In this document: in pieces, positions 1 through 44,868 of the stretch
Layout of the letters: every line of letters begins with the position of its first letter
Numbering within the stretch: position 1 is the stretch's first letter
Origin: a virus
Length of the DNA stretch: 48,747 nt
Reading direction: 5' to 3' (one strand)
IMG/VR virus record: IMGVR_UViG_3300044712_001199
Coordinates: 1-48,747 of that record
Position numbers and translations under genes: made by a program
Notes under the pieces: generated by a model
Database searches by the model: none
The model's input: the letters and a program-made list of their open reading frames with translations, nothing else
What the model was told of the DNA's origin: nothing

Positions 1-2233
1 GGCCATAAATATCCATGCCCCTGAGTGGGTTCGGAGTGAGTGAATCCGACACAATGGTATTCAGTGGGTGCGAAAGAATGGAAACTTCTTTTCCGGATAA
101 AGCTGCAATGCCTCTTTCCGAAATAAAAATGATGGATCCGTGAATAGGCAGGGTATTTCTTCCAACACATACTTCTGAGTTCATCGGTACTATTGCTGAG
201 AACAGAACATTGCCGTCACCCTGCATCAAAGCGTAAATTCCTTCCGTGGTAAACACGTTCATCGGGTACTGACCGAACTGTCCGGTTGAAACTGTCTCGG
301 TAGTGGAGTCCATAGCGACAATCTTTCCGCTTCCCACCCGGTAAGAGTGTTTTGAAAGGAAAGTAAACGGATTATCCACCTCAGAAACGATGATCCGGTT
401 TTGGTCAATGTAACTATTCAGTGTATTTGGAGCAGAAAACAGTGTTAGGCCCGGCAGTGTTTCTCCGGCGTGCTGAATTATGACCGTTGTGAAGTTGAAA
501 TACTTGTAAGTGGAAAACATGGATGCGGACCATGCCGGATTGGAAGCAAAACCATTCTCCCTTGCCTGTCCCCAAGATACATTGACGTATTGGGCAAAGT
601 TGCTGTTGACCGAACTTGTCAAAGCCACTTCTTTGAGGAACATTTCCGCATCATTAGATGGTTGAATGATGGTAAATACCATTTTGTACGCTCGTCTATC
701 CGGGTAACCTATCTGCCCGGGCAGTGCAATCAGCCTGTCATTGCTTGGGGATAGCGTGTAAACGCCTCCGTTGTATGAATATTTCTTGTACGTCTTGTAG
801 GTTTGCGGTGTCCGGATGATTCTTTCACCGTCCGAGGTTTTCAGGTAAGCGTAAGAATAGCCTGAGAAATTCTCTGATCCTGCCGAACGAAAAACATTGT
901 CCCCGTTATTCACACCTTTGACGATGGAATCAAAAATTGCATCCACCGGTTGTTGAAGCAGGTACCCGTCACTCAGGTTTACTTTGATATCTCCCAGGAG
1001 TAACCTGGAATTGTAAACTTTTGATGCTTTCGGGACTGAAACGTGCCATGACTCATCCGCCAAAGAGAATGTTTCCCTTGTAGCGTAGTTATTCCAATAG
1101 TTTTTCAGGTCGATTTTCATGTTGTAGAATCCACCCGAACCTTGCATATTGACAATATCTTCAAGGTTATGGGTGCCTACTTTGTACCAGATTTCGGGGT
1201 CGTTGCCTTTGTCCCGGAAGAGTTCGTTGAGTGCGAAGATTTTTGAGTAGGCATAAGGCGAGTCATTCACTGCCAGTCTCAGGGAATCACTCTTTTGCAG
1301 TTTACCCTTATCTAAATCAAAAACTCTTTGTGGCGCCGAAGCGAAAACCTCAATACCCTTGATGAAGTTTTTCACATTACAGGTGTTCCCGGCTACCGTG
1401 TTGTCAGTCAGAAGTGTGTCAATAACTGAGGACTGTACTGATAAAGAGTAAAGATTTGAGTAAAGTTTTGGCCGGTAGTTCATGATAGAGTTACCACCCT
1501 CCCCTGTTGTGCTTGACTTGTAAAGACTGTTGTCCACCTTTGCACCCCATGAGAAAATTGGTTGAGTTGGGAAAAGTATCGTATCGTCAAAAAGTCTCAG
1601 GCCAATCCTAAACCAGCATACCCCCGGTAACCCACCCTGCTCGGCAGACATTTTGCTTTCCAATTTGTAAATATCATCCAAAATGGCAATGTCGAAATCA
1701 TCAACAAATGAGTGAGTGTGAAGAAGGTAGTATTCATGGTTCACTCCCTCGAAAACAGTAGGGTTATCACTCGGGCATACCCTGAAATCAATCTTCCTAA
1801 AGTCATAAACATTGGCTCTCTTATAGGTGATCCGGTCGTTATCGTCCGTATACCCAAAGTAAACCCTGAGTTGAGACGAAGTAATCACGTACAGGTAATT
1901 TTTGAACGAGCGAATCTCGAGCAATGTACTTCCGTCCGAGCAAACAGAAGAATCGAAAGCGGTAACAGTGGATTCACTGGCCGTGCCTTTCCCTCCGAAG
2001 TTTGACAGTACCCCATTGTCAAGTTTAATCCATGACTCCCACTCTGCTGTTTTGTGCAGAAAGGTTTTAGTCACTGTTCCGGCCATAGTCAAAGGGTGTG
2101 CTGACCGCTTCTTTCCAATGGGTCGAAGTACATTACCCTCATGTCGAAGGTTAATCAAATGGGACAGTGTACCGTTCTTTGAAATTGAGGTAAAGTCTGT
2201 CGTTGTCAGGGGTATGTCAATTCTATTCTCCAT
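1..2233 (-). CDS. Large virion structural protein (stabilisation/tail-hub-like), C-terminus cut by window edge
   Basis: A long open frame runs on the minus strand from the ATG at 2233 to the window edge, at least 744 codons without a stop; the protein continues beyond base 1. It starts MENRIDIPLTTTDF and is rich in beta-strand-type sequence with many Tyr, Asn and Ser residues, like beta-propeller tail proteins. The last visible part contains IIFISERGIAALSG, which resembles the late segment of the tail stabilisation proteins of crAss-like and P22/T7-like podoviruses. The start is set by an 11-base overlap with the upstream 62-codon gene. It lies downstream of a candidate small terminase gene on the same strand. 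A virion role is likely; the exact position (head-tail stabiliser or tail tube B-like) is inferred from general resemblance only. Confidence 0.6.
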   Translation of the reverse strand, partial: MENRIDIPLTTTDFTSISKNGTLSHLINLRHEGNVLRPIGKKRSAHPLTMAGTVTKTFLHKTAEWESWIKLDNGVLSNFGGKGTASESTVTAFDSSVCSDGSTLLEIRSFKNYLYVITSSQLRVYFGYTDDNDRITYKRANVYDFRKIDFRVCPSDNPTVFEGVNHEYYLLHTHSFVDDFDIAILDDIYKLESKMSAEQGGLPGVCWFRIGLRLFDDTILFPTQPIFSWGAKVDNSLYKSSTTGEGGNSIMNYRPKLYSNLYSLSVQSSVIDTLLTDNTVAGNTCNVKNFIKGIEVFASAPQRVFDLDKGKLQKSDSLRLAVNDSPYAYSKIFALNELFRDKGNDPEIWYKVGTHNLEDIVNMQGSGGFYNMKIDLKNYWNNYATRETFSLADESWHVSVPKASKVYNSRLLLGDIKVNLSDGYLLQQPVDAIFDSIVKGVNNGDNVFRSAGSENFSGYSYAYLKTSDGERIIRTPQTYKTYKKYSYNGGVYTLSPSNDRLIALPGQIGYPDRRAYKMVFTIIQPSNDAEMFLKEVALTSSVNSNFAQYVNVSWGQARENGFASNPAWSASMFSTYKYFNFTTVIIQHAGETLPGLTLFSAPNTLNSYIDQNRIIVSEVDNPFTFLSKHSYRVGSGKIVAMDSTTETVSTGQFGQYPMNVFTTEGIYALMQGDGNVLFSAIVPMNSEVCVGRNTLPIHGSIIFISERGIAALSGKEVSILSHPLNTIVSDSLTPNPLRGMDIYG

Positions 2234-2411
2234 TTCCGTCCATTATTAAATTATCTTCCTCAGTTAAAATAACTCCTTTGCCACAGGCAAGGACTACAAC
2301 AGCATTTGCAAATTCAAAGTATCCTGTTATTTGAGTCTGCTTGTTGTTCAAATAAACCTTTCCGGCTTTAATCCGGCGGTCAAGTGCGGTGCGGTATTGT
2401 TCGTTACTCAT
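2223..2411 (-). CDS. Small protein of unknown function (62 aa)
   Basis: A short gene of 62 codons starting MSNEQYRTALDRR. It overlaps the upstream gene by 8 bases and the downstream structural gene by 11 bases, a spacing typical of translationally coupled phage genes, which is the main reason to believe it. The first third is polar and basic; the middle (AVVVLACGKGVIL) is hydrophobic and strand-like; the end is acidic. No family is recognised. It may be an accessory of the large structural protein it precedes. Confidence 0.55.
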   Translation of the reverse strand: MSNEQYRTALDRRIKAGKVYLNNKQTQITGYFEFANAVVVLACGKGVILTEEDNLIMDGNGE

Positions 2412-2853
2412 TGGGTAAAAGTTCTTCGTTGATTAAGGCGTAATAAAGGTTTTGCCACTCATGAACGAACATCCCGCGCCTCTTGAAGTCGTTGTTCCAA
2501 AGAGTGCAAATATTATCTTCCATGCTTTCAGAACCATCCATTCTTTCAATATCTCGCAGATAGATATAATCTCCCGAAAAAACAATCTTCTTTCTGTGGG
2601 TTAAATGGTATTCGTGATTACCAAAACCATTCTTTTGTGACCCTAATTTATTATGCCATTCTTCGGTTAATGGGATTGGCTCAAAACGATCCATTGAAAA
2701 TGCCACATAAAGATTTTTGTTATCAGCATCAACATATTGCGTCGTTCCACAATACAGTTTATCACGAAATGCTCTTACTGTAACCTCAATCTTTGTGCCA
2801 TCATCTGAAATAAAGTAAATTGAATTTCCAATTCTACACTCTTTCGCTTCCAT
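2404..2853 (-). CDS. Conserved Bacteroidetes-phage protein of unknown function (149 aa)
   Basis: The protein begins MEAKECRIGNSIYF and has the hallmarks of a small family common in Bacteroidetes phages: an N-terminal RIGN element, a central EPIPLTEEW motif and a C-terminal W/LQNLYYAL..EEL motif (here HEWQNLYYALINEELL). The function of the family is not known to me. I chose the start at 2853 because it lies one base after the stop of the upstream gene and puts RIGN near the N-terminus as in relatives; an in-frame ATG at 2877 would add eight residues and overlap the upstream gene. It sits between the candidate small terminase and the 62-codon gene in one minus-strand unit. Confidence 0.7.
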   Translation of the reverse strand: MEAKECRIGNSIYFISDDGTKIEVTVRAFRDKLYCGTTQYVDADNKNLYVAFSMDRFEPIPLTEEWHNKLGSQKNGFGNHEYHLTHRKKIVFSGDYIYLRDIERMDGSESMEDNICTLWNNDFKRRGMFVHEWQNLYYALINEELLPNE

Positions 2854-2854
2854 T

Positions 2855-3565
2855 TCACTCAGTTTTAGCTTCTTCAATTACTACTTCCACATCTTCTGTT
2901 GTATCTTTCTGATAATTATTTATTTGTATAAAACTACTCTGGTTTAATTTACCCATAATGGAGGCCATCATTTCCTCTTGGTTAATGCTCGCTCCATTCG
3001 CCATTTTTTGAAGCGCCGGAAGAATACTTCCTCCACCCTCCTTGATCTGGTCACTGTCATTTTGAATAAGAATGTTCATTTCCTTAATGACAGAAAGAAG
3101 GTTGTCAACTCTTTTTTCTTGGGGAATAATCTCTAAAATTCGGTCAATAGCCAATGTTCGGGCACTGACAGCCTTGTCAATGATTTTATCCACCCCCATA
3201 TCAATTCTTTCCATTGCCTGAGTGACGTTTGGAATGACAACTACGCCATCCTCGGGGTGCGTACCCGCTATTCGAATGACAAGTTGGTCAATAACTGCTT
3301 TGGCCGTGGAGTCAATTTCTTCCGTAAAGGTATCGTACCTCCACATTTTCAATGTTTTGGGATTCATTCCCACCATTTTTCCGGTTAGATTGTAGTCCCA
3401 ACCATTTGCCCTGCAAAGCTGGTTAATGACAGCCCTCTCCTTTGGTGAAAACACTTTTTTGGGATTGGACATTAATCTTCCTACCCTCTGACTGACTATG
3501 GTTTCAATCTTCATCCCCTGTCTTCCGGTAATTCTTGTGCCGTCCGGTCTACGTTTTGATGCCAT
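2855..3565 (-). CDS. HTH DNA-binding protein, candidate terminase small subunit
   Basis: A 236-residue protein with a basic N-terminus (MASKRRPDGTRITGR), then a region around residues 45-80 that reads as a helix-turn-helix (ERAVINQLCRANGWDY ... GMNPKTLKMWRYD), a long helical middle with coiled-coil character, and an acidic C-terminal tail (EDVEVVIEEAKTE). This plan, DNA-binding head, oligomerising helices and acidic tail, fits terminase small subunits. It is the first gene of the leftmost minus-strand unit. The large terminase gene lies about 16 kb away, so the usual neighbour argument does not help; the short gene next to the large terminase (21890-22300) is the competing candidate. Treat the terminase assignment as inference. 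Confidence 0.4.
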   Translation of the reverse strand: MASKRRPDGTRITGRQGMKIETIVSQRVGRLMSNPKKVFSPKERAVINQLCRANGWDYNLTGKMVGMNPKTLKMWRYDTFTEEIDSTAKAVIDQLVIRIAGTHPEDGVVVIPNVTQAMERIDMGVDKIIDKAVSARTLAIDRILEIIPQEKRVDNLLSVIKEMNILIQNDSDQIKEGGGSILPALQKMANGASINQEEMMASIMGKLNQSSFIQINNYQKDTTEDVEVVIEEAKTE

Positions 3566-3698
3566 AAGATAAAATATAAACTCTTACCAAAGATAATTGA
3601 TTTTTTCAAAATATATCCACTTTACTGCTAAATAGTTGGGTATTTTCACTTTGTCAAAATATAAATTGACGTATGCTAAAGATTAGATTCTTAAAACT
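3566..3698. promoter_or_regulatory. Divergent A/T-rich promoter region with repeated boxes
   Basis: This gap separates two outward-facing genes. Read on the minus strand it holds TATCTTTG (complement of 3588-3595), a match to the Bacteroidetes -7 consensus TAnnTTTG, about 23 bases before the ATG at 3565. A TATATTTTGA box lies 11 bases further upstream (complement of about 3606-3615), and a second copy, TTATATTTTGA, is at about 3655-3665. The same pair with a 12-base gap occurs in the other divergent region at 22301-22420. The spacing is shorter than the usual -33/-7 distance of the host primary sigma factor, so the upstream box may be an activator or phage-specific element. No good box was found for the plus-strand gene. 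Confidence 0.45.
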
Positions 3699-6406: not shown

Positions 6407-9400
6407 ATGGCTGATCCGCAATTTATACGGTCATTCAAAGATGCTGATGGCAAAACATACGATATACCTTCTGATGAGGCCAATGACTTTGTGAAAGAAT
6501 TTCCCAAAGCACAGGAGATTCATTCTTTTGTAGTCGGTAAAGATACCCTTGATATTCCAAAAGAAGAAGTCGCTGATTTTGTAAAGGATATACCGGAAGC
6601 AAAACCGCTTCAAAACTATGATTTGGGCCAACCTGTTCCTGTTCAACCAAAACCCTTAATAGCAGAACCAGAGACAGGCAAAGACACAAAGCCCGATCAC
6701 GGCTACCTTATGTCAAATATCCTTCAGGGGATTACTTCGACCGAGAAATGGATTTACGATCTCCCGAAGCTTCTTTACAAAACAGCAGCACTTCCCTTTG
6801 AAGGGCTTGCCAATGTTACCGGATTCGAAGCGCTCAGGCCACCTTCCACAGAACAAATTAATAAGGGTTATGAAAAGATCCCCGGAGTAGGTAATATCAG
6901 TAAAATGCTCGGTGATTATTCGGACTACCTGCAAAACAACATAGAGGCCGATCCTGACGCAAAGAAAAACGTTATAGATACTTTCACCAACGGGATAAGG
7001 AATGGTGACATTAAAGAAATAGGCACCGGATTTAAGCTCTTAGGTGGTCAGTTATTGCAGTCTCTTCCTTCAACCATACTTGCCGGAGCAGCCGGAATGA
7101 AAGCGGTTGATACCGGACTGAAAATGACACCTTACCTGAAAGAATTAGCGAAGTCATACGCACCCCTTACGGCGGTATTTGCGGAAGGCAAACTTGATGA
7201 GATTGAAAAGAATGCACCGGATCTGCCTAACGCCGAAAAGCTGACTATTGCATGGGCCAACGGATTCTTTGAGAACCTTTTTGAAAGAGAACTCGGAGCC
7301 GGAGCAGTGGCACAGTCTTTGGCCGGAATCATAAAGAATGCCGGAAAAGAAGAAGGCGCAAAAATTGTTAAGCAAGGCTTTAAGAAAACTTTTGCCGAAA
7401 TGCTTACCGATAAACCCTGGATGGCACCATTTGGGGAAATGTTTGAAGAAATGGGTACGCAGATTTCCGAAAATGCCTTTGACAAATACTTTGGGTACAG
7501 ACCCGAAATGAGTCTCATGGATGGAGTGGCCACGGCCGGACTTGCCGGATTAACGATGGGTGGCGCTTTCGGTGGAGTTATCTCAGGAACAAAATACGGT
7601 GTCGAAAAAGTCAATCAGGCCGCTTACAACAAAAGAAAGTCAGACCTAATCAATCAGGCCGGAACACACATTGATGAAAACGTTATTCCCCTGATTAAAC
7701 ACGACACTTCAGACCAAATTATTGAAGTAAATCATAAAGGTAAAGGCTGGTTTGTGGTCAGTGGTGATGTCAACGACCCATCATCCATGCTTATCCTTGC
7801 CAACAAAGAGAATCCACAGGAAAGGATTACTCCAAGCAGGGCCGAAATTGACACCAAGGATATTCTTTACATACCAACTTCCGAGTTTCGTGACTCACAA
7901 CTGCAAGATCTTAAAGATCAATTTGCAGAAATTGAGGCAAAGAAGAAGCAGAAAGTCCAACAGGAAGATCATGCCGCATCATTCACGCTTAATGACCCCG
8001 TAACCATGCCAGATGGCAGAACCGGAAAAATAATCCGTATTGAGGGCCGCGACCAATTCTTTGTCGTTCCAGATGAAAACGAAGGTCGGGAAGTCAACCC
8101 AATGCTGTTTAGTCCGGCAGAACTCACAAAGATTCAACCCCCAACAGATCAATCCACCATTGAACCAGTAACAGACCAACAAAATGAGCAACCATCAAAC
8201 ACCAATCCAGTTGAGACAAAGCCAAAAGAGCAGCTTATCAACATCGGAACTCAAGCAGAACCTCAAAATACGAGGCTTATCACCGACCCGGATGGGATCA
8301 AACGAGTTGATGCGAAGTTCGATGACCAAGCCTCCGCTAATAAAGCTGCTGAAATTATTCGTACAAAAGGTAAAGTATCAGCTAACTACGATGTAACAGT
8401 TGACAGAGTTGAATTAAATCCTGACGATGAATTTACTGATGTAATCTATACCGTCACACTTCGCCCAAAGGTGGCCGTAAGTTCCCAAATATCTCCTAAT
8501 TCTGAACAAATTGGGAATAATTTGGAATCAAAGGTTTCAGAAACAGCCGTTACCCCCACGGTTGAGGTGACACAGGAGCAAGCCCCAAAGACCTCTACTC
8601 CTGTTGAGCCTGAAAATGGGAATATTCTCAATTCGCAAATTGCAAATGTTTCAGAAAATGTTAACAATAATTTAATACAAACTGAAAATGTTTCCGAAAT
8701 AAAGCCACAAGAAACTAATATTGAGACTATTACTGAAACTATACCGACTGAAAGTTTACAGAAAAGTTCAACTCAAAAAGTAAAAAAAGAAAAAAGTGCA
8801 CCGAAAATTCAAACCGAAGCCTACAATACAGAAACTCACCCAAGAGATGTAAGGGCAATTGTCCTGAAACACTTCATCGGTGGAGGCAAGATAAATAAGT
8901 CTGCACTTCAAGAACTGTTTGGAAAGAAAAACAGCACCAATAGGGACGCTGCGGTTGAGGCTGAACGCAAACCAAGATTCACATGGGTTTCAGATTCAGA
9001 AGGTTCAAGTATTGCACAAATAGCGCACTCTCTTTGGGAAGAACACGGCCTTGACTCGGAAGGAAACACTATTGAAGGAATGAGTGACCAGGACTTCCGC
9101 AACGAAATTGAAGATGTAATCAAGAGTTATTCTTCCCCTGTTCAAATGGCTAAAGACCTTCTTTCAGTAAATAAGGCCAAAGAAAGCCAATATACTGACG
9201 AGCAAATCCTTGAAATGGAAAAATTAGGGATAACAAATGAACCATTGTCAGAAGAAGATGCTATATTTGTAAATAGTGCACCACAAGATGATGCTGAATA
9301 CATTAACGCTCTTAATGAATACTACGGGTTATCAGCCGAAGATCAAACAGCACTAAATAATTTATACCATGAGTCTTACACAGGAACAGAGAATGGAGTT

Positions 9401-12400
9401 AGCCAAAGCAGCCCGAAACCTGAAAGCAATGGAACAAGCCAAGCAGAGAACAGGCCAGTCTCACCCGAAAGAGAAAAAATCGAATCCGAAATAACTCAGG
9501 TTAAGTCCGATTTAAAGAAGGCAAAATCCCTTGCCACAAAAGCATCATCCCTTTACAATAAGTTAAAGAAATCGCCTGAATTTGGCGGAAAAGGTCAAAT
9601 ATCCCAAGACGGAACAGTTGCGGGAAGTGAAGCTATTGATTTTGGTAATGATGCAATTTTAAACGGTGCGAAGAAAAAAGTAACCGAAGCTAATCAGGCT
9701 GTTTCTGAACTCGAAAAGAAACATGCCAAACTTGAAGATTCCCTTGTAAATGTAGTGCATAATCAACAGGAATTGTTTGTTTCTCCCCTCACCGACCTTA
9801 TTGACCAATCTAAAAAGAAATCAAATACTGTTGACTCTCAACTCAAAGGTCAAGACATTAACCTCAATCCAACAGAAGGTCAAAAAGAAGCCGGAAATTA
9901 CGCTAAAGGCCATGTAGTAGTTCGGGGAATGAATATTACCATTGAAAATCCAATTGGTTCAGTCCGAAAAGGTATAGACGAAGATGGTAAAGCATGGGAA
10001 CACACCATGAAATCCCATTATGGCTACTTCAAGCAAACCGAAGGAAAGGACGGTGACCATATTGACACATTCATTGGCCCTAATCCCGAAAGTGAAAAAG
10101 TATTTGTAGCTGACCAAATCAATCCAAGTACCGGAAATTTCGATGAAAGTAAGGTGATGATTGGTTATAACACCGTTGAAGAGGCACATCAAGCCTATTC
10201 CGAGAATTACGACAAGGATTGGAATGGGTTAAAGTCCATCACGGAGGTTGGTATAGTTCCTTTCAAAGAATGGCTAAATGACGGCAAAAAACAGCACAAA
10301 CCCTTTGCGGAGTACAAAGAGACTCCTGACCCAACAATAATTGTTCCACTTAACACCCAACCCAATGAAAGCGAAAAAGTGCAAGCCGAAGGTGGTAAAA
10401 CCGCCAAAGAAGAAGTAAAATCTGAACAACCAAGTGTTGAAACAGTTAAGAAACCGTCTTTGGAAACGGAGGCGGTTTCAGTTTCTCCCCTTGAATCACT
10501 TATCGCTACCTCTCAAAAGAAAACAAGTGTAAAAGTTACTTCTCAGGCCGCAAAAGTCTTTGAACCCGGCACAAAAGTCAACACAAAGTTCTTAGGTCAA
10601 CCACTTAGGGCGACCGTACTTGATTCCCCAAGAATATCCGAAGGAAAACTGAAAGTTAAGTCAAGTGATGGAGTTATCTATACCGTGAAGGTGAGTGATA
10701 CAAGCGTGGCTGAATCAAGATATTCAATGTTGGATGATATGATTTCTCCTTTCCTTGATTTAGTTCAGGGGAAACAGTCTCAAAAAGCAATTGCAAGAGC
10801 GATTCTTTCAATATCAAAGACCAAACAAAAAATTCTTTTCCTAAATAAAGAGGATGCCGCTAATAATATGGTACAAAATGGAGTTAGTCCGGCAGACGCA
10901 AAAGAAACACGGATAAAAAATTATCAGGCAGTTCAGATAAAAGGAAGAATTTATATAAAGCCCGAAATTACTGACCCAAGAGAAGTTGGACGACTTATTA
11001 TACATGAATTAATACATGGTAAAATAGAGTCACAATTTCCCAACCTATTAGATAGGAAAGCGTACTGCGAAGATATTTATCTTGCGTTGGGTAAAAACGA
11101 GATTGAATCCGTTGTTCCGGAAGGATATTGGTCTGACCCAATACGGATTCAAGGAGAAGAATACTTCTCTCATAAAGTCGAACAAATAATAGAAAGATTA
11201 CTTTTTAGTCCACAAAAATCTGCCGAACAGATATTTGACGAAATATTGTCAACAGTTCCAGATAATTCAATTAAAAACGCTATCTTAGAAACAGTAAATC
11301 AAACCATTGAACTTAATAAATTAAGAGATGTTATCAACACCCATATTACAGGAAATAGTGTTAGTAAACAAAAGCGATCTATCACCAAAGGAGAAACAGT
11401 TAGTAATAGACTGTCTGAACCAAGACACTCCGTGGACCCCAGAAGCGGAGGAACTTCTGAACAAGGTCTACGATACGGTGGGAAAAGAACCCCTATTCAA
11501 CAGGTAACCCATGCCTACGACATACTTAATCCGGGAGATAAAACGGTATCTGAGGGTACTAAAAAGATTGGCAACAAGAAAGAAAAGCCAGCCAACAATT
11601 GGATTTCCCAACGGCAGGAAGTACCGGAAATGGGACAAGTTCATGGAAACCCCGTACATGAAGGCGAAAATGGAAGAAGAAATGGCAATTCCATACCAAA
11701 AGAGAGTAAGAAATCCGCTCCCCCAGCAATTAAAATAGATGGAGTTGACCAACCCACTCACGCCTTAGATATTCTCAACGGAACAGCAATGTTCTCCCGT
11801 GATGCGAAACCCCTGACAGTTGAAGAAAAAAGGGCACAGCAAAAAGCCGAGATCACAGAAATTGAATGGGTAAAGACTGCTGGAGAAAGACTCAGAAGAG
11901 GCATGCAGGATGCGGAACTCTCCGCAAAGTTAATGCAGGAATTTATTGAAAAGGCCACAGGGGAGAAATTACCAAGCCACATGGACGGTTACAAGTCCCA
12001 AAACCTTGAATCTTCCAAAAATGCCTATGCCATAAAGCAACTTGAAGAGACTATTGTAAAACCTTTAGTCCGGGCGCAGCTTGACCTAAAAAATAACTAC
12101 AAGGTTTCCGATGAAGAAATTGCCGACTATGTTATGGCCTCCCATGCACCGGAACGGAACTTAACAGAACGAGCAAAACGGGTTAATGCAGATTATAGCA
12201 AGGTAGAAAACTCAGTAGGCACAACAGAACAGGTGGTCAATTTAATGGATGACCTGAAAGCCCAAAACAAATACAAGGAGCAAGTCACCAATATGTCTGC
12301 CGATGAGTTTAGGGCCTGGTACCTGGAAAAGAAAAAAGCCCAACTCGAAAAGAAATATGCCGAAAATGACTATGCTGGACTGACCGAATGGATGAATGAA

Positions 12401-15022
12401 GAAGTTGATAAAGGTCTTTATCACCCAAGCAACAGAGAGGAATCGCGAGAAAAATGGTCTGTTGACGAATTTGCCAACTTCAAAATCAAGCAGTTTGAGG
12501 ATAAAGTCACGGATAAAAAGCATCTGAAAGAACTTTGGCACCAGGTTAACCGGTTGACAAAATTTTCACTCGATGAAGATTTAAGAAGCGGAAGAATCAA
12601 TCAGCAGATGTACGATTTTTTACTCAACAGGTGGAAAAAATACGTGCCATTAAGAGGTTTTGAAAACATTACCGCCGGAGACGTATTCGACTACACAACT
12701 GGAGAAACTAACGGGATGATTCAGCCCATGAAAAGAATTGAGGGCCGCAGATCAAAAGCCGATGATCCGTTTGCCAACATGGTCAGTATGGCCCAATCCT
12801 CAATCATTCAGGGGAACAAAAACAGAACAGCACTGAGCGCACTGTATATGGTTCGTGCTTATCCACAATTTCAAGCGAAAAACGATAAGGCAAGTGGACT
12901 GTTTCGTTTGGCAAAAACCGTACTCAGAAAAGACACCGTAACGGGTAGTTGGTTTGAATATGACGAAAACGACGGAGTTGTTCCGCAGGAAGATTTTGAC
13001 AAAGGTCTCGCCAAGCGAGTTAGCGACCCTTCATCTTTCCTTTTGAGAAGGACAAATCTTCAAGACAAAGAAAGTCAGGTTGTGGCCGTTGAGGACGGAG
13101 TACGAAAAGTAATGTATTTCGCAGACCCGGACGTTGCCCGGTCTTATAAAGGAATCAATAAGGAAAGCACCGAGAAAGTTGTTAAGGCTTACACAGCAGT
13201 TATAGGGAAACCCACAAGGATAATTACCCGGCTCTGGACAACATACAGCCCAAAATTCATCCTGAGCAACACTCCGGTTGACTTACTGTTCTCTGAGTTT
13301 AATCACATGATTAACAGCAACGGAAACTTCATCGGTTTCAATCAGGCGCTTCCCGGATCCGCAAAAGTCCTTTCTAAATATGTTTGGGGTGGTAGGGAAT
13401 CGCTTAAACCCGAATACGACTCCAATGGTGTCCCGACAAATATGGATGGATTCATGGTGGAGTTTTTGGAGAATGGAGCAGAAACCGGATTTTCACACCA
13501 AATGAGCATAGCACAACACAGAATAGCAATCAACAAGTTGCAAAAAGAGTTAAGTGGAGATGCCCTGTATGCGCCTAAAAAAGTTCTCGATGTTGTAATT
13601 GACCAAATTCAGCACACGGCAGAACTTTCAGAAGGACTTTCAAGACTTTCAACTTATGTCGCCTCGAGAAAATCTGGAAAGACAAAACAACAGTCCGCTT
13701 TTGATGCCCACGAGATAACTGTGAACTTTACCAAGTCCGGTAAATATACCTCTGTATTCAGTCCTTTGTACGGATTCTTTAATGTAGGGTTTCAGTCTTT
13801 AAAGACCGGAGCAACACTGATTAATCAAAATAAAGGTAAAGGAATAGCAGCTTTGGCCGCACTGGTTGCACTCGGTTATGCAACGGCGGCGGTACTCTCA
13901 GCCACAGGGCCGGAAGATGACAAAGACAAGTCACTCTATTACTCGCTTTCGGACTATGACAGGTTCAATAAATTCATAATTCGTAACGGAAAAGGATTTA
14001 TCGTCATTACAGTTCCTCACTTTTTCAGGGCTTTCTACGCTTTGGGGGTAGGCATTCACGACATAACATCCGGCCACAAAAATATGATGGACGGTGTTTT
14101 GGATGTTTCGGGGAATATGCTTTCCACCCTCTCACCCATAAATATGCAAGGATCAGGATTCACTAAAGATGGAGCGAGCGCAAGGTTTGTTGTTCCGACC
14201 GCACTACAACCCGTTTTAGACCTAAAAACCAATAGTGATGCTTTCGGTTCAAAAGTATATAAAGAGCCTTTCCTTCCGGCCATGAACGGTGTTGATCCGG
14301 CTTATACAATGTCCATGCCTTATGTGAACCCCACTTTAAAAGAGGCATCCCGTAAATGGAACAACCTATGGGGTGGTGACGACAACAGATCAATGGAAAT
14401 GGTTGTCAATCCCAAAACGCAGGAATGGGAACACAACAAACTTAAGGGTATGATAGACTGGAACCCCTCTCAGGTTGAACACGTTTTTGAATATATGGGT
14501 GGCGGTGCGGCGAGATCATTCAACGAGCTTGCCAAAACAGTAAACTACCTGATTGATAAAAGTAACGGAAAGGATGTTCCACTTGAACCAAGAAGTACTC
14601 CAGTTTTAAGCACCTTCTATCGGGAGCCAAAATCGGTAAATGATATTTCTAAAAGCTACAACCTTCTTAAAAGCAGGATGCAAACACAGGATTTCATGAC
14701 CGCAAAGGCTAAAGAAGAAATGATTACCAATAAAAATTCAAGTCCTTTCATTAAGGAAATGAGCAATATCTACACACGAAGAAGGATGGCTGCGTACGAC
14801 ATAGCCGAAAAACAGTTGGATGCCCTTAACAAGTCATTCAAGTACGATCCTTCCATGAAAAATGCAGAAATGATGGATAGGGTCAACCAGATTAAAAAAA
14901 CAGCAGTGGATGAAGTTTTGAAGATCGACAAAAATCTTGAAGAACTCTATAAAACCGGATCAAACGAAGATACCCGTAATAAATCTTCTGCCGATAACCT
15001 ATTAAAATACCTTCATAAATAA
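6407..15022 (+). CDS. Giant polyvalent protein: InPase-like, HExxH peptidase and LPD38-like regions
   Basis: At 2871 residues this takes up 18% of the window. Residues 5-68 hold two ~33-residue repeats (..YDIPSDEANDFVKEFP.. and ..LDIPKEEVADFVKDIP..). Residues about 860-930 are charged and helical. Residues about 1160-1300 match the InPase (inorganic pyrophosphatase-like) domain of polyvalent proteins: NYAKGHVVVRGM, SHYGYFKQTEGKDGDHID, then a VGIVPFKEW ending. HELIH at 1533-1537 is an HExxH zinc peptidase motif. About 1830-2760 resemble the LPD38-type C-terminal region, with YVPLRGF near 2080 and two hydrophobic stretches at about 2478-2502 and 2525-2550. Polyvalent proteins of phages are thought to enter the cell with the DNA and counter host defences. 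Its place between ejection-type genes and the portal fits packaging in the capsid. Confidence 0.75.
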   Translation: MADPQFIRSFKDADGKTYDIPSDEANDFVKEFPKAQEIHSFVVGKDTLDIPKEEVADFVKDIPEAKPLQNYDLGQPVPVQPKPLIAEPETGKDTKPDHGYLMSNILQGITSTEKWIYDLPKLLYKTAALPFEGLANVTGFEALRPPSTEQINKGYEKIPGVGNISKMLGDYSDYLQNNIEADPDAKKNVIDTFTNGIRNGDIKEIGTGFKLLGGQLLQSLPSTILAGAAGMKAVDTGLKMTPYLKELAKSYAPLTAVFAEGKLDEIEKNAPDLPNAEKLTIAWANGFFENLFERELGAGAVAQSLAGIIKNAGKEEGAKIVKQGFKKTFAEMLTDKPWMAPFGEMFEEMGTQISENAFDKYFGYRPEMSLMDGVATAGLAGLTMGGAFGGVISGTKYGVEKVNQAAYNKRKSDLINQAGTHIDENVIPLIKHDTSDQIIEVNHKGKGWFVVSGDVNDPSSMLILANKENPQERITPSRAEIDTKDILYIPTSEFRDSQLQDLKDQFAEIEAKKKQKVQQEDHAASFTLNDPVTMPDGRTGKIIRIEGRDQFFVVPDENEGREVNPMLFSPAELTKIQPPTDQSTIEPVTDQQNEQPSNTNPVETKPKEQLINIGTQAEPQNTRLITDPDGIKRVDAKFDDQASANKAAEIIRTKGKVSANYDVTVDRVELNPDDEFTDVIYTVTLRPKVAVSSQISPNSEQIGNNLESKVSETAVTPTVEVTQEQAPKTSTPVEPENGNILNSQIANVSENVNNNLIQTENVSEIKPQETNIETITETIPTESLQKSSTQKVKKEKSAPKIQTEAYNTETHPRDVRAIVLKHFIGGGKINKSALQELFGKKNSTNRDAAVEAERKPRFTWVSDSEGSSIAQIAHSLWEEHGLDSEGNTIEGMSDQDFRNEIEDVIKSYSSPVQMAKDLLSVNKAKESQYTDEQILEMEKLGITNEPLSEEDAIFVNSAPQDDAEYINALNEYYGLSAEDQTALNNLYHESYTGTENGVSQSSPKPESNGTSQAENRPVSPEREKIESEITQVKSDLKKAKSLATKASSLYNKLKKSPEFGGKGQISQDGTVAGSEAIDFGNDAILNGAKKKVTEANQAVSELEKKHAKLEDSLVNVVHNQQELFVSPLTDLIDQSKKKSNTVDSQLKGQDINLNPTEGQKEAGNYAKGHVVVRGMNITIENPIGSVRKGIDEDGKAWEHTMKSHYGYFKQTEGKDGDHIDTFIGPNPESEKVFVADQINPSTGNFDESKVMIGYNTVEEAHQAYSENYDKDWNGLKSITEVGIVPFKEWLNDGKKQHKPFAEYKETPDPTIIVPLNTQPNESEKVQAEGGKTAKEEVKSEQPSVETVKKPSLETEAVSVSPLESLIATSQKKTSVKVTSQAAKVFEPGTKVNTKFLGQPLRATVLDSPRISEGKLKVKSSDGVIYTVKVSDTSVAESRYSMLDDMISPFLDLVQGKQSQKAIARAILSISKTKQKILFLNKEDAANNMVQNGVSPADAKETRIKNYQAVQIKGRIYIKPEITDPREVGRLIIHELIHGKIESQFPNLLDRKAYCEDIYLALGKNEIESVVPEGYWSDPIRIQGEEYFSHKVEQIIERLLFSPQKSAEQIFDEILSTVPDNSIKNAILETVNQTIELNKLRDVINTHITGNSVSKQKRSITKGETVSNRLSEPRHSVDPRSGGTSEQGLRYGGKRTPIQQVTHAYDILNPGDKTVSEGTKKIGNKKEKPANNWISQRQEVPEMGQVHGNPVHEGENGRRNGNSIPKESKKSAPPAIKIDGVDQPTHALDILNGTAMFSRDAKPLTVEEKRAQQKAEITEIEWVKTAGERLRRGMQDAELSAKLMQEFIEKATGEKLPSHMDGYKSQNLESSKNAYAIKQLEETIVKPLVRAQLDLKNNYKVSDEEIADYVMASHAPERNLTERAKRVNADYSKVENSVGTTEQVVNLMDDLKAQNKYKEQVTNMSADEFRAWYLEKKKAQLEKKYAENDYAGLTEWMNEEVDKGLYHPSNREESREKWSVDEFANFKIKQFEDKVTDKKHLKELWHQVNRLTKFSLDEDLRSGRINQQMYDFLLNRWKKYVPLRGFENITAGDVFDYTTGETNGMIQPMKRIEGRRSKADDPFANMVSMAQSSIIQGNKNRTALSALYMVRAYPQFQAKNDKASGLFRLAKTVLRKDTVTGSWFEYDENDGVVPQEDFDKGLAKRVSDPSSFLLRRTNLQDKESQVVAVEDGVRKVMYFADPDVARSYKGINKESTEKVVKAYTAVIGKPTRIITRLWTTYSPKFILSNTPVDLLFSEFNHMINSNGNFIGFNQALPGSAKVLSKYVWGGRESLKPEYDSNGVPTNMDGFMVEFLENGAETGFSHQMSIAQHRIAINKLQKELSGDALYAPKKVLDVVIDQIQHTAELSEGLSRLSTYVASRKSGKTKQQSAFDAHEITVNFTKSGKYTSVFSPLYGFFNVGFQSLKTGATLINQNKGKGIAALAALVALGYATAAVLSATGPEDDKDKSLYYSLSDYDRFNKFIIRNGKGFIVITVPHFFRAFYALGVGIHDITSGHKNMMDGVLDVSGNMLSTLSPINMQGSGFTKDGASARFVVPTALQPVLDLKTNSDAFGSKVYKEPFLPAMNGVDPAYTMSMPYVNPTLKEASRKWNNLWGGDDNRSMEMVVNPKTQEWEHNKLKGMIDWNPSQVEHVFEYMGGGAARSFNELAKTVNYLIDKSNGKDVPLEPRSTPVLSTFYREPKSVNDISKSYNLLKSRMQTQDFMTAKAKEEMITNKNSSPFIKEMSNIYTRRRMAAYDIAEKQLDALNKSFKYDPSMKNAEMMDRVNQIKKTAVDEVLKIDKNLEELYKTGSNEDTRNKSSADNLLKYLHK

Positions 15023-41746: not shown

Positions 41747-42069
41747 AATACAAATAATTCTCCTTGTTTATACTCTTTATCCAAAATTCTCAGCCTCCAT
41801 TTATAGTTTGGCCGGCCATATTGTTCAACTACCTTTTCGTTGGTTTTTTGTAATTTCCCTTCGCTTTCCAAATTAGAAATACTCCTTCTCACGGAAGTTA
41901 TGGGAACAGATTCAGGGAATAACCTTCGCCAAATTTCTGCCGGAGTGAAAGAACAAAATGGATTTTCTGCAAAGAATTTTATGATCTTGTCGGTTTGATT
42001 CTTTGCTGCCTCGGTAAGATTTTTAACCATACCGGGGGATTCACAAGTTGTATTGTAGAATTGGGTCAT
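41743..42069 (-). CDS. Winged-helix regulator-like protein (108 aa)
   Basis: A DNA-binding fold is visible in NQTDKIIKFFAENPFCSFTPAEIWRRLFP followed by ITSVRRSISNLESEGKLQ and a wing-like YGRPNYKWRL. These are hallmarks of small winged-helix proteins that bind DNA. It could regulate the phage early unit or act in replication. It overlaps neighbours by ATGA junctions on both sides. Confidence 0.62.
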   Translation of the reverse strand: MTQFYNTTCESPGMVKNLTEAAKNQTDKIIKFFAENPFCSFTPAEIWRRLFPESVPITSVRRSISNLESEGKLQKTNEKVVEQYGRPNYKWRLRILDKEYKQGELFVL

Positions 42070-42896
42070 GGGTTGAATATGTTATAGTCACGATCAACAC
42101 AGCTTGCATTATTCAGACAAAGTGCCTCACGGGATACGCTAGTTAACTTTATAAGCGAATCTTTGATGTACACCTTTGTATGATTACACGAGCAAGCAAT
42201 AAGAATCTTTGTCATAAACCACTGCGCATCTTTTTTGTCGTACTTTCCGCCGGACATTAAACCAACTTTATACAGGTCGCAAAAATTTAATGTCTGCTCG
42301 ATCATCCGGTAGCTACTTTCAAAATCAATGATCGGCTCAATACTGGAAAATGTTTTGAATCCGGCATTGTGAAGCTTTTCCATTGCCTCAATTCGTTCTT
42401 GATTGGTTGATGCACCCGGTTCAAGCTCATCGTGGCCGGTAAGGGTAAAGCCAAAAGCGTACAATTCAGGATTTTCAACTCCTCCCCCAAAATTCTTCGA
42501 ATCTTCCAGCCAGTCATCTACCCACCAAGTACACTTCGTTAGGATTTTAACCGGAACCTTTTTATAGACTGCCATCCCCACGGCATCCCATGTTAAATCA
42601 ATAGTTTCCGGCAACATTGGATCTGTTGTGAAAGAGAAAAATAATCCATGTTCTTTTAACTCTTGCAAATTTTGCACAAGTTCCTTATGGAAGATGTCGA
42701 GTGCATGCGTTTCGTGCTCAAAGAATTTCTTCAATTGTGGCCTGTCCTGCCCCATTACTCCGGCCAGGATTCCCTTTTTGCAATAGCAATAGGTACATCC
42801 GTTTGAGCAACCTACATGAAAATTGCACCCCCAATAACTGTACTCACCGGCTTTTCCGGATGGGTTGTAAATAGCTTTACCTTTAAATGTTTTCAT
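42066..42896 (-). CDS. Radical-SAM protein, SplB/Gp37-Gp68-like
   Basis: 276 residues with an iron-sulfur cluster motif CSNGCTYC (Cys30, Cys34, Cys37; CxxxCxxC of radical SAM) followed by a YCKKGI stretch. FFSFTTDPMLPETIDLTW and PVKILTKCTWW are early core strands, and GHDELEPGASTNQERIEAMEKLHNAG is typical of phage Gp37/Gp68 and spore photoproduct lyase-like proteins. Such enzymes cleave S-adenosylmethionine to make a radical; substrate here is unknown, DNA or nucleotide being likely from the neighbours. Extra Cys pairs at the C-terminus (CNHTKVYI ... LCLNNASCVD) may bind another cluster. Confidence 0.75.
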   Translation of the reverse strand: MKTFKGKAIYNPSGKAGEYSYWGCNFHVGCSNGCTYCYCKKGILAGVMGQDRPQLKKFFEHETHALDIFHKELVQNLQELKEHGLFFSFTTDPMLPETIDLTWDAVGMAVYKKVPVKILTKCTWWVDDWLEDSKNFGGGVENPELYAFGFTLTGHDELEPGASTNQERIEAMEKLHNAGFKTFSSIEPIIDFESSYRMIEQTLNFCDLYKVGLMSGGKYDKKDAQWFMTKILIACSCNHTKVYIKDSLIKLTSVSREALCLNNASCVDRDYNIFNP

Positions 42897-43252: not shown

Positions 43253-43379
43253 TTTTTCTCTTATTTCGTGATAACTTGGTTTCTTTTATTTCCAGAACAT
43301 AATCCCGGTCTTTCTTAACCTTCCGTCTTATCTCCCGGAAGATGCCTTCAAGGGCGGCGTTCTGAATGTTGAATCTCAT
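43104..43379 (-). CDS. Doubtful small ORF filling the gap between methyltransferase and next gene
   Basis: The first ~42 codons (MRFNIQNAALEGIFREIRRK ... YVLEIKETKLSRNKRKN) fill 95 bases that no other gene uses, and look like the beginning of NinB/YqaN-type recombination proteins. Beyond that the frame runs through the next gene and becomes low-complexity, so it may be a remnant of a longer gene or an accident. Confidence 0.22.
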   Translation of the reverse strand: MRFNIQNAALEGIFREIRRKVKKDRDYVLEIKETKLSRNKRKNGSTTSSRPNKGKDSGARTGKTKIVRSGASQSPGDLQLRPGSCNRSPEN

Positions 43380-44868
43380 ATTCTTGTATAGATTTAAATA
43401 TCATTAGGGCGATTTGCGGTACTATTGCGTTTCCGTAGGCTTTGATTGATTCGTTACGATGCCAACCAAGGAATTTGACAACTTCTTTTTCAATCTCCTT
43501 AGTCGCCAGTGCAATTTCATGTGACAATTGTGGCAAAGAGTCTGCAAATTGCTCTCTGAATTGTTTTTCCAGTTCCCGTCCACGTGGTGAACATCCAAGA
43601 GAACCGTACTTGTGCAAAGTTCGCAATAGTCCTTCTGATGCTTTCTCGCCAAAAGGTGAAAACTCCCCTTGTGCGATATTGGGGGCCTGACATAACTGCA
43701 AGACTTGGAGCAGTATTCCCTCTGTATGAATCTTGTATAATCCTCCAACCTCCCGTTGAACATCCTTCGATTGAAAGGCGTCCCACACTTCTTGCAGATC
43801 TTTTCTGTCGTAATCTTTGCTAATCGTCCCATATACCTCTGATTTTATATTTCTAACCATTGATTCGGAAATCCCATCATACACGCCACGAACCGGGGAT
43901 TGAGTTGGGAAGTTTGTCCAGTCCGCAACAGGAAACCTGGAACTGTATCCCGATCTCGCAGCGAGATCGGGAGTGTTGAGTTTTTTCCGTCTTGTGCTGA
44001 CGGGGTTGGGATAAGCGAATATTTTGGTCTCTTTGTGCTGTGATACTTCGCTTGTTCGAAGTCCTGATAAGTCACCATTGAATTGGTGGGAGTTGGGAGT
44101 AGCTTCATTTCCGCTAAGTCGTTCAGGCCAAATGTCCATCCTTGTTGAATTTTTCTCTGAGTCCGACCATCTTCCAACTTCGATCCGCTCTTTTCGTCCC
44201 GCGCTTGTGGTGTTGGAAGTAAACCCCGATTTGCCAATTCTCCTATTGTCATTCCGAATCCATTCCCATTCTTCTTGGATGATTTCGCTTTTTCCCTTCT
44301 TTTGTCCACAACTTCCAAATCCCCGCAATTTGTGTCCATAACAAGCGGAGTGGGCAATAAACCAAACCCTATCCCTTCTATGGGGAGCGTTGACACCACA
44401 AGCTGGAAGTATAAACGGTTGTACTTCGTACCCTTCAGTTTCCAGGTCAGTCTGCACCTGCTCGAATACCACCCCTCCATCCCAACTAATAATCCCGCCA
44501 ACGTTTTCCCCCACGATGTACTCCGGGCGGATCTCTCGTATAAGTCTAAGCATCTCCGGCCAGAGGTGGCGGTCATCTTTTGTGCCTTTTCTTTTTCCTG
44601 CAAGGCTGAATGGCTGGCATGGGAACCCTCCTGTAAGGACGATTGGCCCACATCTCCAGTTTGCTCCAAAACGCTGAATAAGTTCTGTATTGAGTAATTC
44701 ATAAGTTAATGTTTTTATATCTCCGTGATGATAGGCTTCCGGCCAATAATATTTCAAAACTTGTTGTCCAAATGGGTTAATTTCACATGATGCGTAGTTT
44801 TTCCAACCCATCCATTCCGAAGCCAGTTCAAAACCACCAATGCCGGAAAATGTTGAAATGTGTATCAT
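43348..44868 (-). CDS. dcm: C5 cytosine DNA methyltransferase (Dcm-like) with internal insert
   Basis: 506 residues. Motif I STFSGIGGFELA at the start, motif IV GGFPCQPFS with catalytic Cys84, ENV at 121-123 (motif VI), APHRRDRVWF at 161-170 (motif VIII) and KAYGNAIVPQ at 476-485 (motif X). It should methylate cytosine in phage or host DNA, for example to protect against restriction. A ~125-codon segment between GVYDGISESM (about 329-338) and FLGWHRNESIKAYGN (about 466-480) is an insertion; it coincides with an HNH gene in the alternate frame (43422-43832). The frame stays open right through the insert. Confidence 0.85.
   Translation of the reverse strand: MIHISTFSGIGGFELASEWMGWKNYASCEINPFGQQVLKYYWPEAYHHGDIKTLTYELLNTELIQRFGANWRCGPIVLTGGFPCQPFSLAGKRKGTKDDRHLWPEMLRLIREIRPEYIVGENVGGIISWDGGVVFEQVQTDLETEGYEVQPFILPACGVNAPHRRDRVWFIAHSACYGHKLRGFGSCGQKKGKSEIIQEEWEWIRNDNRRIGKSGFTSNTTSAGRKERIEVGRWSDSEKNSTRMDIWPERLSGNEATPNSHQFNGDLSGLRTSEVSQHKETKIFAYPNPVSTRRKKLNTPDLAARSGYSSRFPVADWTNFPTQSPVRGVYDGISESMVRNIKSEVYGTISKDYDRKDLQEVWDAFQSKDVQREVGGLYKIHTEGILLQVLQLCQAPNIAQGEFSPFGEKASEGLLRTLHKYGSLGCSPRGRELEKQFREQFADSLPQLSHEIALATKEIEKEVVKFLGWHRNESIKAYGNAIVPQIALMIFKSIQEYEIQHSERRP
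43422..43832 (-). CDS. HNH endonuclease encoded in alternate frame inside dcm
   Basis: 136 residues starting MGRLAKITTEKICKKCGTPF, in a frame different from dcm. The sequence has CKKCGTPF, REYCSKSC, DYCELC and CHNCH zinc pairs and the HNH core HHVDGNWKNNSESNLQTLCHNC with following HMKLHW: a complete HNH homing nuclease. It begins 13 bases after the stop of the 285-codon alternate-frame ORF and ends over the dcm GNAIVPQ motif. Its presence matches the extra dcm segment, so it probably invaded dcm. Confidence 0.75.
   Translation of the reverse strand: MGRLAKITTEKICKKCGTPFNRRMFNGRLEDYTRFIQREYCSKSCSYVRPPISHKGSFHLLARKHQKDYCELCTSTVLLDVHHVDGNWKNNSESNLQTLCHNCHMKLHWRLRRLKKKLSNSLVGIVTNQSKPTETQ
43845..44702 (-). 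CDS. 285-codon ORF overlapping dcm in alternate frame (LPTP-type)
   Basis: This ORF is in the same alternate frame as the HNH. It starts MNYSIQNLFSVLEQTG and contains KMTATSGRRCLDLYE, TWKLKGTKYNRLYFQL, four LPTP motifs (LLPTPLVMD, LLPTPQARD, LLPTPTNSM, LIPTPSAQD) and a terminal LNPRFVACMMGFPNQW. These exact motif types occur in proteins annotated next to phage cytosine methyltransferases, sometimes as separate genes, so this may be a real overlapping gene. It may instead be an echo of conserved dcm codons. It covers dcm residues about 56-341. No function is known. Confidence 0.45.
   Translation of the reverse strand: MNYSIQNLFSVLEQTGDVGQSSLQEGSHASHSALQEKEKAQKMTATSGRRCLDLYERSARSTSWGKTLAGLLVGMEGWYSSRCRLTWKLKGTKYNRLYFQLVVSTLPIEGIGFGLLPTPLVMDTNCGDLEVVDKRREKAKSSKKNGNGFGMTIGELANRGLLPTPQARDEKSGSKLEDGRTQRKIQQGWTFGLNDLAEMKLLPTPTNSMVTYQDFEQAKYHSTKRPKYSLIPTPSAQDGKNSTLPISLRDRDTVPGFLLRTGQTSQLNPRFVACMMGFPNQWLEI

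Follow-up and report, generated by a model that had tools for sequence, protein, structure and literature searches.

The methyltransferase gene and its overlapping frames

The window, by which we mean the whole stretch of 48,747 nucleotides analyzed here (IMG/VR virus record IMGVR_UViG_3300044712_001199), carries portal, terminase, tail fibre and RecT genes and, on its minus strand, a C5-cytosine methyltransferase ORF (dcm, here called alpha) of 506 codons that is open throughout from ATG to TGA (Table 1). Motifs I (FSGIGG), IV (GGFPCQPFS), VI (GENV), VIII (RRDRVW) and X (GNAIVPQ) were all found in this ORF; motif IX is absent, and motifs I–VIII and X are in the same large chain. The Pfam DNA_methylase profile matched alpha at 5 × 10−37, over residues 4–193 only, and the NCBIfam TIGR00675 match was above the cut-off. 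The AlphaFold model of alpha resembles the HhaI and HaeIII methylases; its catalytic core and motif X helix are confident, the linker is disordered, and the inserted segment described below is modelled as low-confidence helices, with no known domain in Pfam for the alpha-frame translation of that segment.

The +1 frame of alpha is open from 44702 to 43422 except for a single stop (TAA, 43847–43845), which divides it into a 285-aa ORF with LPTP motifs (beta) and a 136-aa HNH endonuclease ORF. The latter has four Cys pairs and the residues DVHHVDGN..NN..NL..LC..CH..LH, matches phrog_1271 (E = 8 × 10−12) and scores slightly below threshold against Pfam HNH (20.5 vs. 21.4 bits); its sequence match to I-HmuI (1u3e) is weak (E = 0.42). 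In the window, its ATG lies 12 nt past the beta stop, and AGAGG at 43836–43840 may be its ribosome-binding site. The layout described in the earlier note, namely, an alternate frame of dcm open but for one stop and holding both a complete HNH nuclease and a second ORF with LPTP motifs and an LNPRFV..MMGFP ending, along with a dcm frame that stays open and keeps its motifs, is borne out by this analysis.

Among the loci found, the nearest three-layer one is in Arachidicoccus rhizosphaerae, and hence the host of the window phage likely belongs to Bacteroidota. Downstream of alpha and on the same strand, 42066–42896 encodes a Radical SAM protein (Pfam, 5 × 10−10, DUF5131-like). A 2871-aa ORF at 6407–15022 has a DarB-like antirestriction match (phrog_10089, 1 × 10−48) and also matches other large phage proteins.

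Table 1 Features of the methyltransferase locus in the window and nested HNH genes at other loci.
Feature	Position	Strand	Evidence or remark
Alpha, C5-cytosine methyltransferase catalytic subunit, 506 aa	43348..44868	-	Pfam, NCBIfam, AlphaFold
Beta, +1-frame ORF, 285 aa, LPTP motifs, motif IX-like end QLNPRFVACMMGFPNQW	43845..44702	-	phrog_1008, relatives, selection, motif IX profile
Beta motif IX-like codons (QLNPRFVACMMGFPNQW)	43857..43907	-	Aligned to motif IX of single-chain C5 methylases
HNH endonuclease ORF, 136 aa, +1 frame of alpha, ATG	43422..43832	-	ORF list, phrog, alignment
Inserted segment, net gain 375 nt, boundaries ± about 15 nt	43462..43850	-	Comparison with HNH-less relatives
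Alpha motif X (GNAIVPQIALMIFKSI); the HNH stop codon overlaps its start	43387..43434	-	Sequence, comparison with relatives
Staphylococcus phage CUB-EPI_14 (L141), methyltransferase	1842-3647		
Staphylococcus phage CUB-EPI_14 (L141), HNH	3001-3483		
L145, nested HNH	2992-3582		
L165 and L166, nested HNH	around 2986-3390		
Komagataeibacter phage phiKX1 (L161), three-layer alpha/beta/HNH gene	1360-3006		

Beta and the linker of alpha

Beta matches phrog_1008, 'DNA methyltransferase' (E = 4.5 × 10−30). A +1 ORF with LPTP motifs was found in 96 distinct intact alpha relatives (some of these were fetched using beta itself), where it extends from approximately codon 40–60 to just short of motif X and ends in LNP.FV..MMGFP. 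A nested beta is the rule for this enzyme family, being present in nearly every intact relative; it is found in relatives without HNH as well, which rules out beta as a component of the insert. The earlier note had treated the 285-codon ORF as an oddity of this gene comparable to the nuclease, and here the analysis departs from it: beta appears to be a family-wide nested subunit with motif IX. The end of beta aligned with the motif IX profile of single-chain C5 enzymes over 24 columns, a short match (E = 7 × 10−4, probability 27%). A Pfam search with beta produced no match, and nothing meaningful emerged when PDB sequences were searched with its profile; the AlphaFold model of beta alone was poor (pLDDT 57), and a fold search of this model against the PDB returned no match.

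When substitution rates were compared by codon position in close HNH-less pairs, the alpha-only start of the gene yielded 0.051, 0.023 and 0.239 at alpha positions 1, 2 and 3, and the linker past motif VIII yielded 0.259, 0.143 and 0.127, with the highest rate at beta position 3. The simulation fit was walpha 1.0 and wbeta 0.2 for the linker and walpha 0.1 for the catalytic part, where the beta constraint was not significant (wbeta 0.65); these and the fits reported below come from a rough simulation rather than a full codon model, and they use few pairs and treat mutation simply. Because selection between motifs VIII and X fits the beta frame, this part of alpha is a linker written in beta coding DNA. 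The start codon of beta is uncertain, and given that the part overlapping the alpha catalytic region shows no significant beta selection, the real start may lie further in. Taken with the motif content of alpha, these observations make beta the probable missing second subunit of alpha, nested within its gene and supplying motif IX; target recognition, too, seems to fall to beta.

M.EcoHK31I is a two-polypeptide C5-methyltransferase (YGGCCR). Lee et al. are said to have located, in 1995, its small gene inside the large gene, in another frame. Motifs I–VIII and X of this enzyme are in the large subunit, to which the TRD is also assigned, and motif IX is in a separate small polypeptide (PMC3404938). 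Likened by description, the window enzyme is similar, with motifs I–VIII and X in alpha and, judging by the 24-column match, motif IX in beta; it differs in that the alpha linker is unconstrained (walpha 1.0) and beta is selected (wbeta 0.2). The window enzyme would work in the manner of M.EcoHK31I, but we do not file it as a member of that type, since its TRD is apparently located in beta rather than in alpha.

The inserted HNH gene

The distance between the FPTQSP and GNAIVP codons is 120 nt in almost all HNH-less relatives, 495 nt in the window and 495–504 nt among HNH carriers, so that the window has gained 375 nt (125 codons), in frame with alpha. This agrees with the segment of approximately 125 codons that had been proposed as an addition to dcm, and no HNH-less relative with the same dcm segment was found at this fixed site. 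The insert begins directly where the beta codons for motif IX end, supplies a new beta stop and precedes motif X of alpha, with the HNH stop at or close to that motif; in seven split-enzyme loci, the HNH start is 0–12 nt past the beta stop. Because the length of the insert is a multiple of three and the alpha frame contains no stops, alpha is still read through to motif X, which makes for the longer methyltransferase (+125 codons) that the earlier note had envisaged.

When the synonymous codons of the window HNH were permuted, a mean of 7.1 alpha-frame stops was obtained, compared to 0 observed (P = 2 × 10−4); with the codon usage of the locus, the mean was 10.5, and 0 of 5000 sequences were open. 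A chance open frame is thus ruled out by the codon permutation. Searches with HNH queries identified at least 14 loci where a C5-methyltransferase gene with an unbroken frame of its own holds an HNH gene of this kind in its +1 frame. At least 10 of these are split enzymes, either of the alpha type of the window (the window, L001, L002, L149, L150, L151, L152 and L163) or with a GWPTP- or GW-type beta (L161, i.e. phiKX1, and L164). In the single-chain C5-methyltransferases (L141, L145, L165 and L166), the HNH gene precedes motif IX, within the variable region, and in L141, L165 and L166, AGGAG is found upstream of the HNH start. All 14 of the loci found (at least 14) have no host-frame stop within HNH, against means of 5–13 expected from synonymous permutation (P ≤ 4 × 10−4 each); less related HNHs outside methylases have 2–23 stops in the equivalent frame. 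A plasmid search with the L165 HNH gave no match.

Simulation fits for the insert, based on three phylogenetically separate pairs, gave wHNH 0.2 and walpha 0.3, with log-likelihood drops of 18.4 at walpha = 1 and 37.5 at wHNH = 1. The fits agreed when the direction was reversed, with kappa 1 and 4, for the L163 pairs and for the single-chain pair L165–L166. Within the insert, purifying selection thus seems to act on both frames. It is in our estimation rather unlikely that the alpha frame is merely stop-free, with no selection on its amino acids, and that the walpha of 0.3 arose from codon preference or from a constraint on the DNA itself. Such an origin would be consistent with an alpha-frame segment that has no known domain and is modelled as low-confidence helices, and the published model of the ShiLan host frame is likewise poor (PMC11855218). 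However, the same method applied to the matched control, the linker, which has the identical frame geometry, yields walpha 1.0. Fourfold third bases are also more conserved in HNH (17/74 changed) than in the alpha N-terminus (18/29; p = 4 × 10−4), a contrast to which recent transfer adds and which is only supporting because the inserts are partly younger than their hosts.

In the tree of alpha catalytic domains, HNH carriers are scattered, with 4 changes, at least 3 of which are forced by starred branches, and HNH is missing from most relatives. A single clade of HNH carriers was rejected (AU p = 0.009); constraining the window and L001 alone together was not rejected (p = 0.107). Between L150 and L151, the insert differs by 1.6% and both flanks by 12–16% (Fisher 3 × 10−11); for L001 and L150, the pattern is the opposite, the hosts being closer and the inserts more distant. 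The scattered carriers and the young L150/L151 insert suggest a trace of homing, and together with the empty site and the open host frame, they favour the earlier proposal of a mobile HNH gene that inserted into dcm out of frame without closing the dcm frame. Neither of the outcomes that the earlier note had named as refuting this proposal was observed: HNH-less relatives with the same dcm segment did not turn up, and the per-frame fits show selection on the alternate frame.

The same distribution bears on the improbable alternative that HNH is the restriction partner of the methyltransferase, the two forming a compact modification-plus-restriction unit in one gene, and that it has spread through selection for this unit and not through selfish homing. 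HNH restriction enzymes exist, and all close HNH relatives with the N-terminal zinc finger are inside C5-methyltransferase genes. PacI is an enzyme of this kind named in PMC11855218. Against a partnership of this kind, HNH occupies two different sites in two enzyme architectures and most relatives have no HNH; furthermore, the TRD/LPTP region differs between L150 and L151 (alpha of 495 and 424 aa) with near-identical HNHs, so that matched specificity would break.

Splicing or bypass of the insert as a group I intron, an intein or a programmed frameshift, with the open alpha frame incidental, is very improbable. Group I introns often carry HNH genes (PMC11855218), but an Rfam search of the window and the locus detected no intron or other known RNA element, which led us to reject a group I intron, and no intein domain was found in alpha with Pfam and NCBIfam; the openness of the host frame far above chance in all loci found and the alpha-frame selection within the insert point the same way. 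Equally improbable is a defunct HNH that is only carried along, its open frames being left over from the past: one decayed copy is known (L082, with alpha and HNH frame-shifted), but wHNH is about 0.2, and the zinc-ribbon and HNH residues are intact in all aligned nested copies.

Proposed explanation and known systems

Our preferred reading, to which we assign a probability of roughly 0.8, is that the window encodes a split C5-methyltransferase with beta nested in the +1 frame of alpha and that a mobile HNH gene was inserted after the beta stop. Direct support comes from the anatomy of the locus and the empty site, from an open frame that is not random, from the presence of beta throughout the family, from signs of selection on both frames of the insert, and from the scattered distribution with one recently moved insert; the assembly of two subunits, cleavage by the nuclease, homing and the mode of HNH translation are what we infer beyond these. 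Under this split-enzyme reading, alpha would gain a 125-residue extra segment within a pre-existing linker, and alpha, beta and HNH would be translated off one transcript; for HNH, ribosomes would probably reinitiate at the beta stop or use a ribosome-binding site located there. HNH would then cut HNH-less copies at the conserved motif IX/motif X region, and repair would copy the insert in.

A more specific proposal, for which we see even odds, is that these HNHs are a homing lineage specialised for C5-methyltransferase genes, with true dual coding of the nuclease and of a selected segment that the host tolerates or needs, coupled in split enzymes to the beta stop and sparing both subunits. 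If the dual coding is real, such an element would live inside a gene in the manner of an intein, without any splicing. Its harmlessness would come from insertion into a linker that already codes for another subunit, and the stretch after the beta stop would offer a route for its translation.

Phage methylase genes that carry an HNH out of frame are already known. One such HNH, the ShiLan domain, lies in a mycobacteriophage methylase whose own frame stays open (Arsenault et al. 2025, PMC11855218), and the same work reports a second, different case, Pacc40; ShiLan-type elements were described earlier (PMC9957025) and also in phage Applejack (PMC12613952). ShiLan and the window share a zinc-motif HNH encoded out of frame within a phage DNA methylase gene; an insert without host-frame stops, absent from relatives and patchily distributed; no intron or intein signature; and a weak, partly helical model of the host-frame segment. 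The host in ShiLan is of the DPPY type (the motif is present in the gp65 sequence), with HNH in the +2 frame and a GTG start, whereas the window has a C5 host, the +1 frame and ATG; in addition, the window gene has a nested beta, its HNH follows the beta stop, and its host frame looks selected. Similarity between the two HNHs is weak, partial and limited to the core (best E = 1 × 10−4 in a nine-sequence search). What differs here is the C5 host class, the +1 frame, the three layers, the site beside a nested subunit and a host frame seemingly under selection, as well as HNH translation that likely starts from the beta stop or from an AGGAG close by. Because at least 14 nested loci were found and the general kind is published (PMC11855218), the description of the arrangement as rare in the earlier note was too strong.

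The single-chain C5 hosts (CUB-EPI_14 L141, L145, L165 and L166) share the HNH family, the +1 frame and the 0 host-frame stops with the window; they differ in that all motifs are in one frame and the insert lies before motif IX rather than after it. The likeness to I-HmuI is in the HNH core; unlike the HNH homing endonucleases of that type, the window HNH has no intron and occupies a second coding frame within its host. Out-of-frame HNH elements extend past mycobacteriophages to phages associated with Bacteroidota, Acetobacteraceae and Staphylococcus, in another methylase class and another frame, and a gene with three overlapping proteins is a good test case for methods that measure selection in overlapping frames.

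In the public records examined, e.g. those of phiKX1 and CUB-EPI_14, nested beta and HNH genes are either left out or wrongly labelled. The phiKX1 record contains fragments only, with the beta tail and the alpha motif X tail annotated as 'hypothetical protein' and HNH unannotated. L167 (2712-3380, high GC) has an HNH core out of frame just upstream of motif X (GNGVVPQ) and is probably a further nested case, left out of the 14. In L082 (2400-3600), stop and start are adjacent at the beta–HNH junction, but deletions or frameshifts affect alpha and HNH, as in a decayed copy. In L017 (3001-4971) and L003 (3001-4395), alpha, at 656 and 464 aa, extends far beyond motif X in a way that resembles an in-frame fusion with the next gene.
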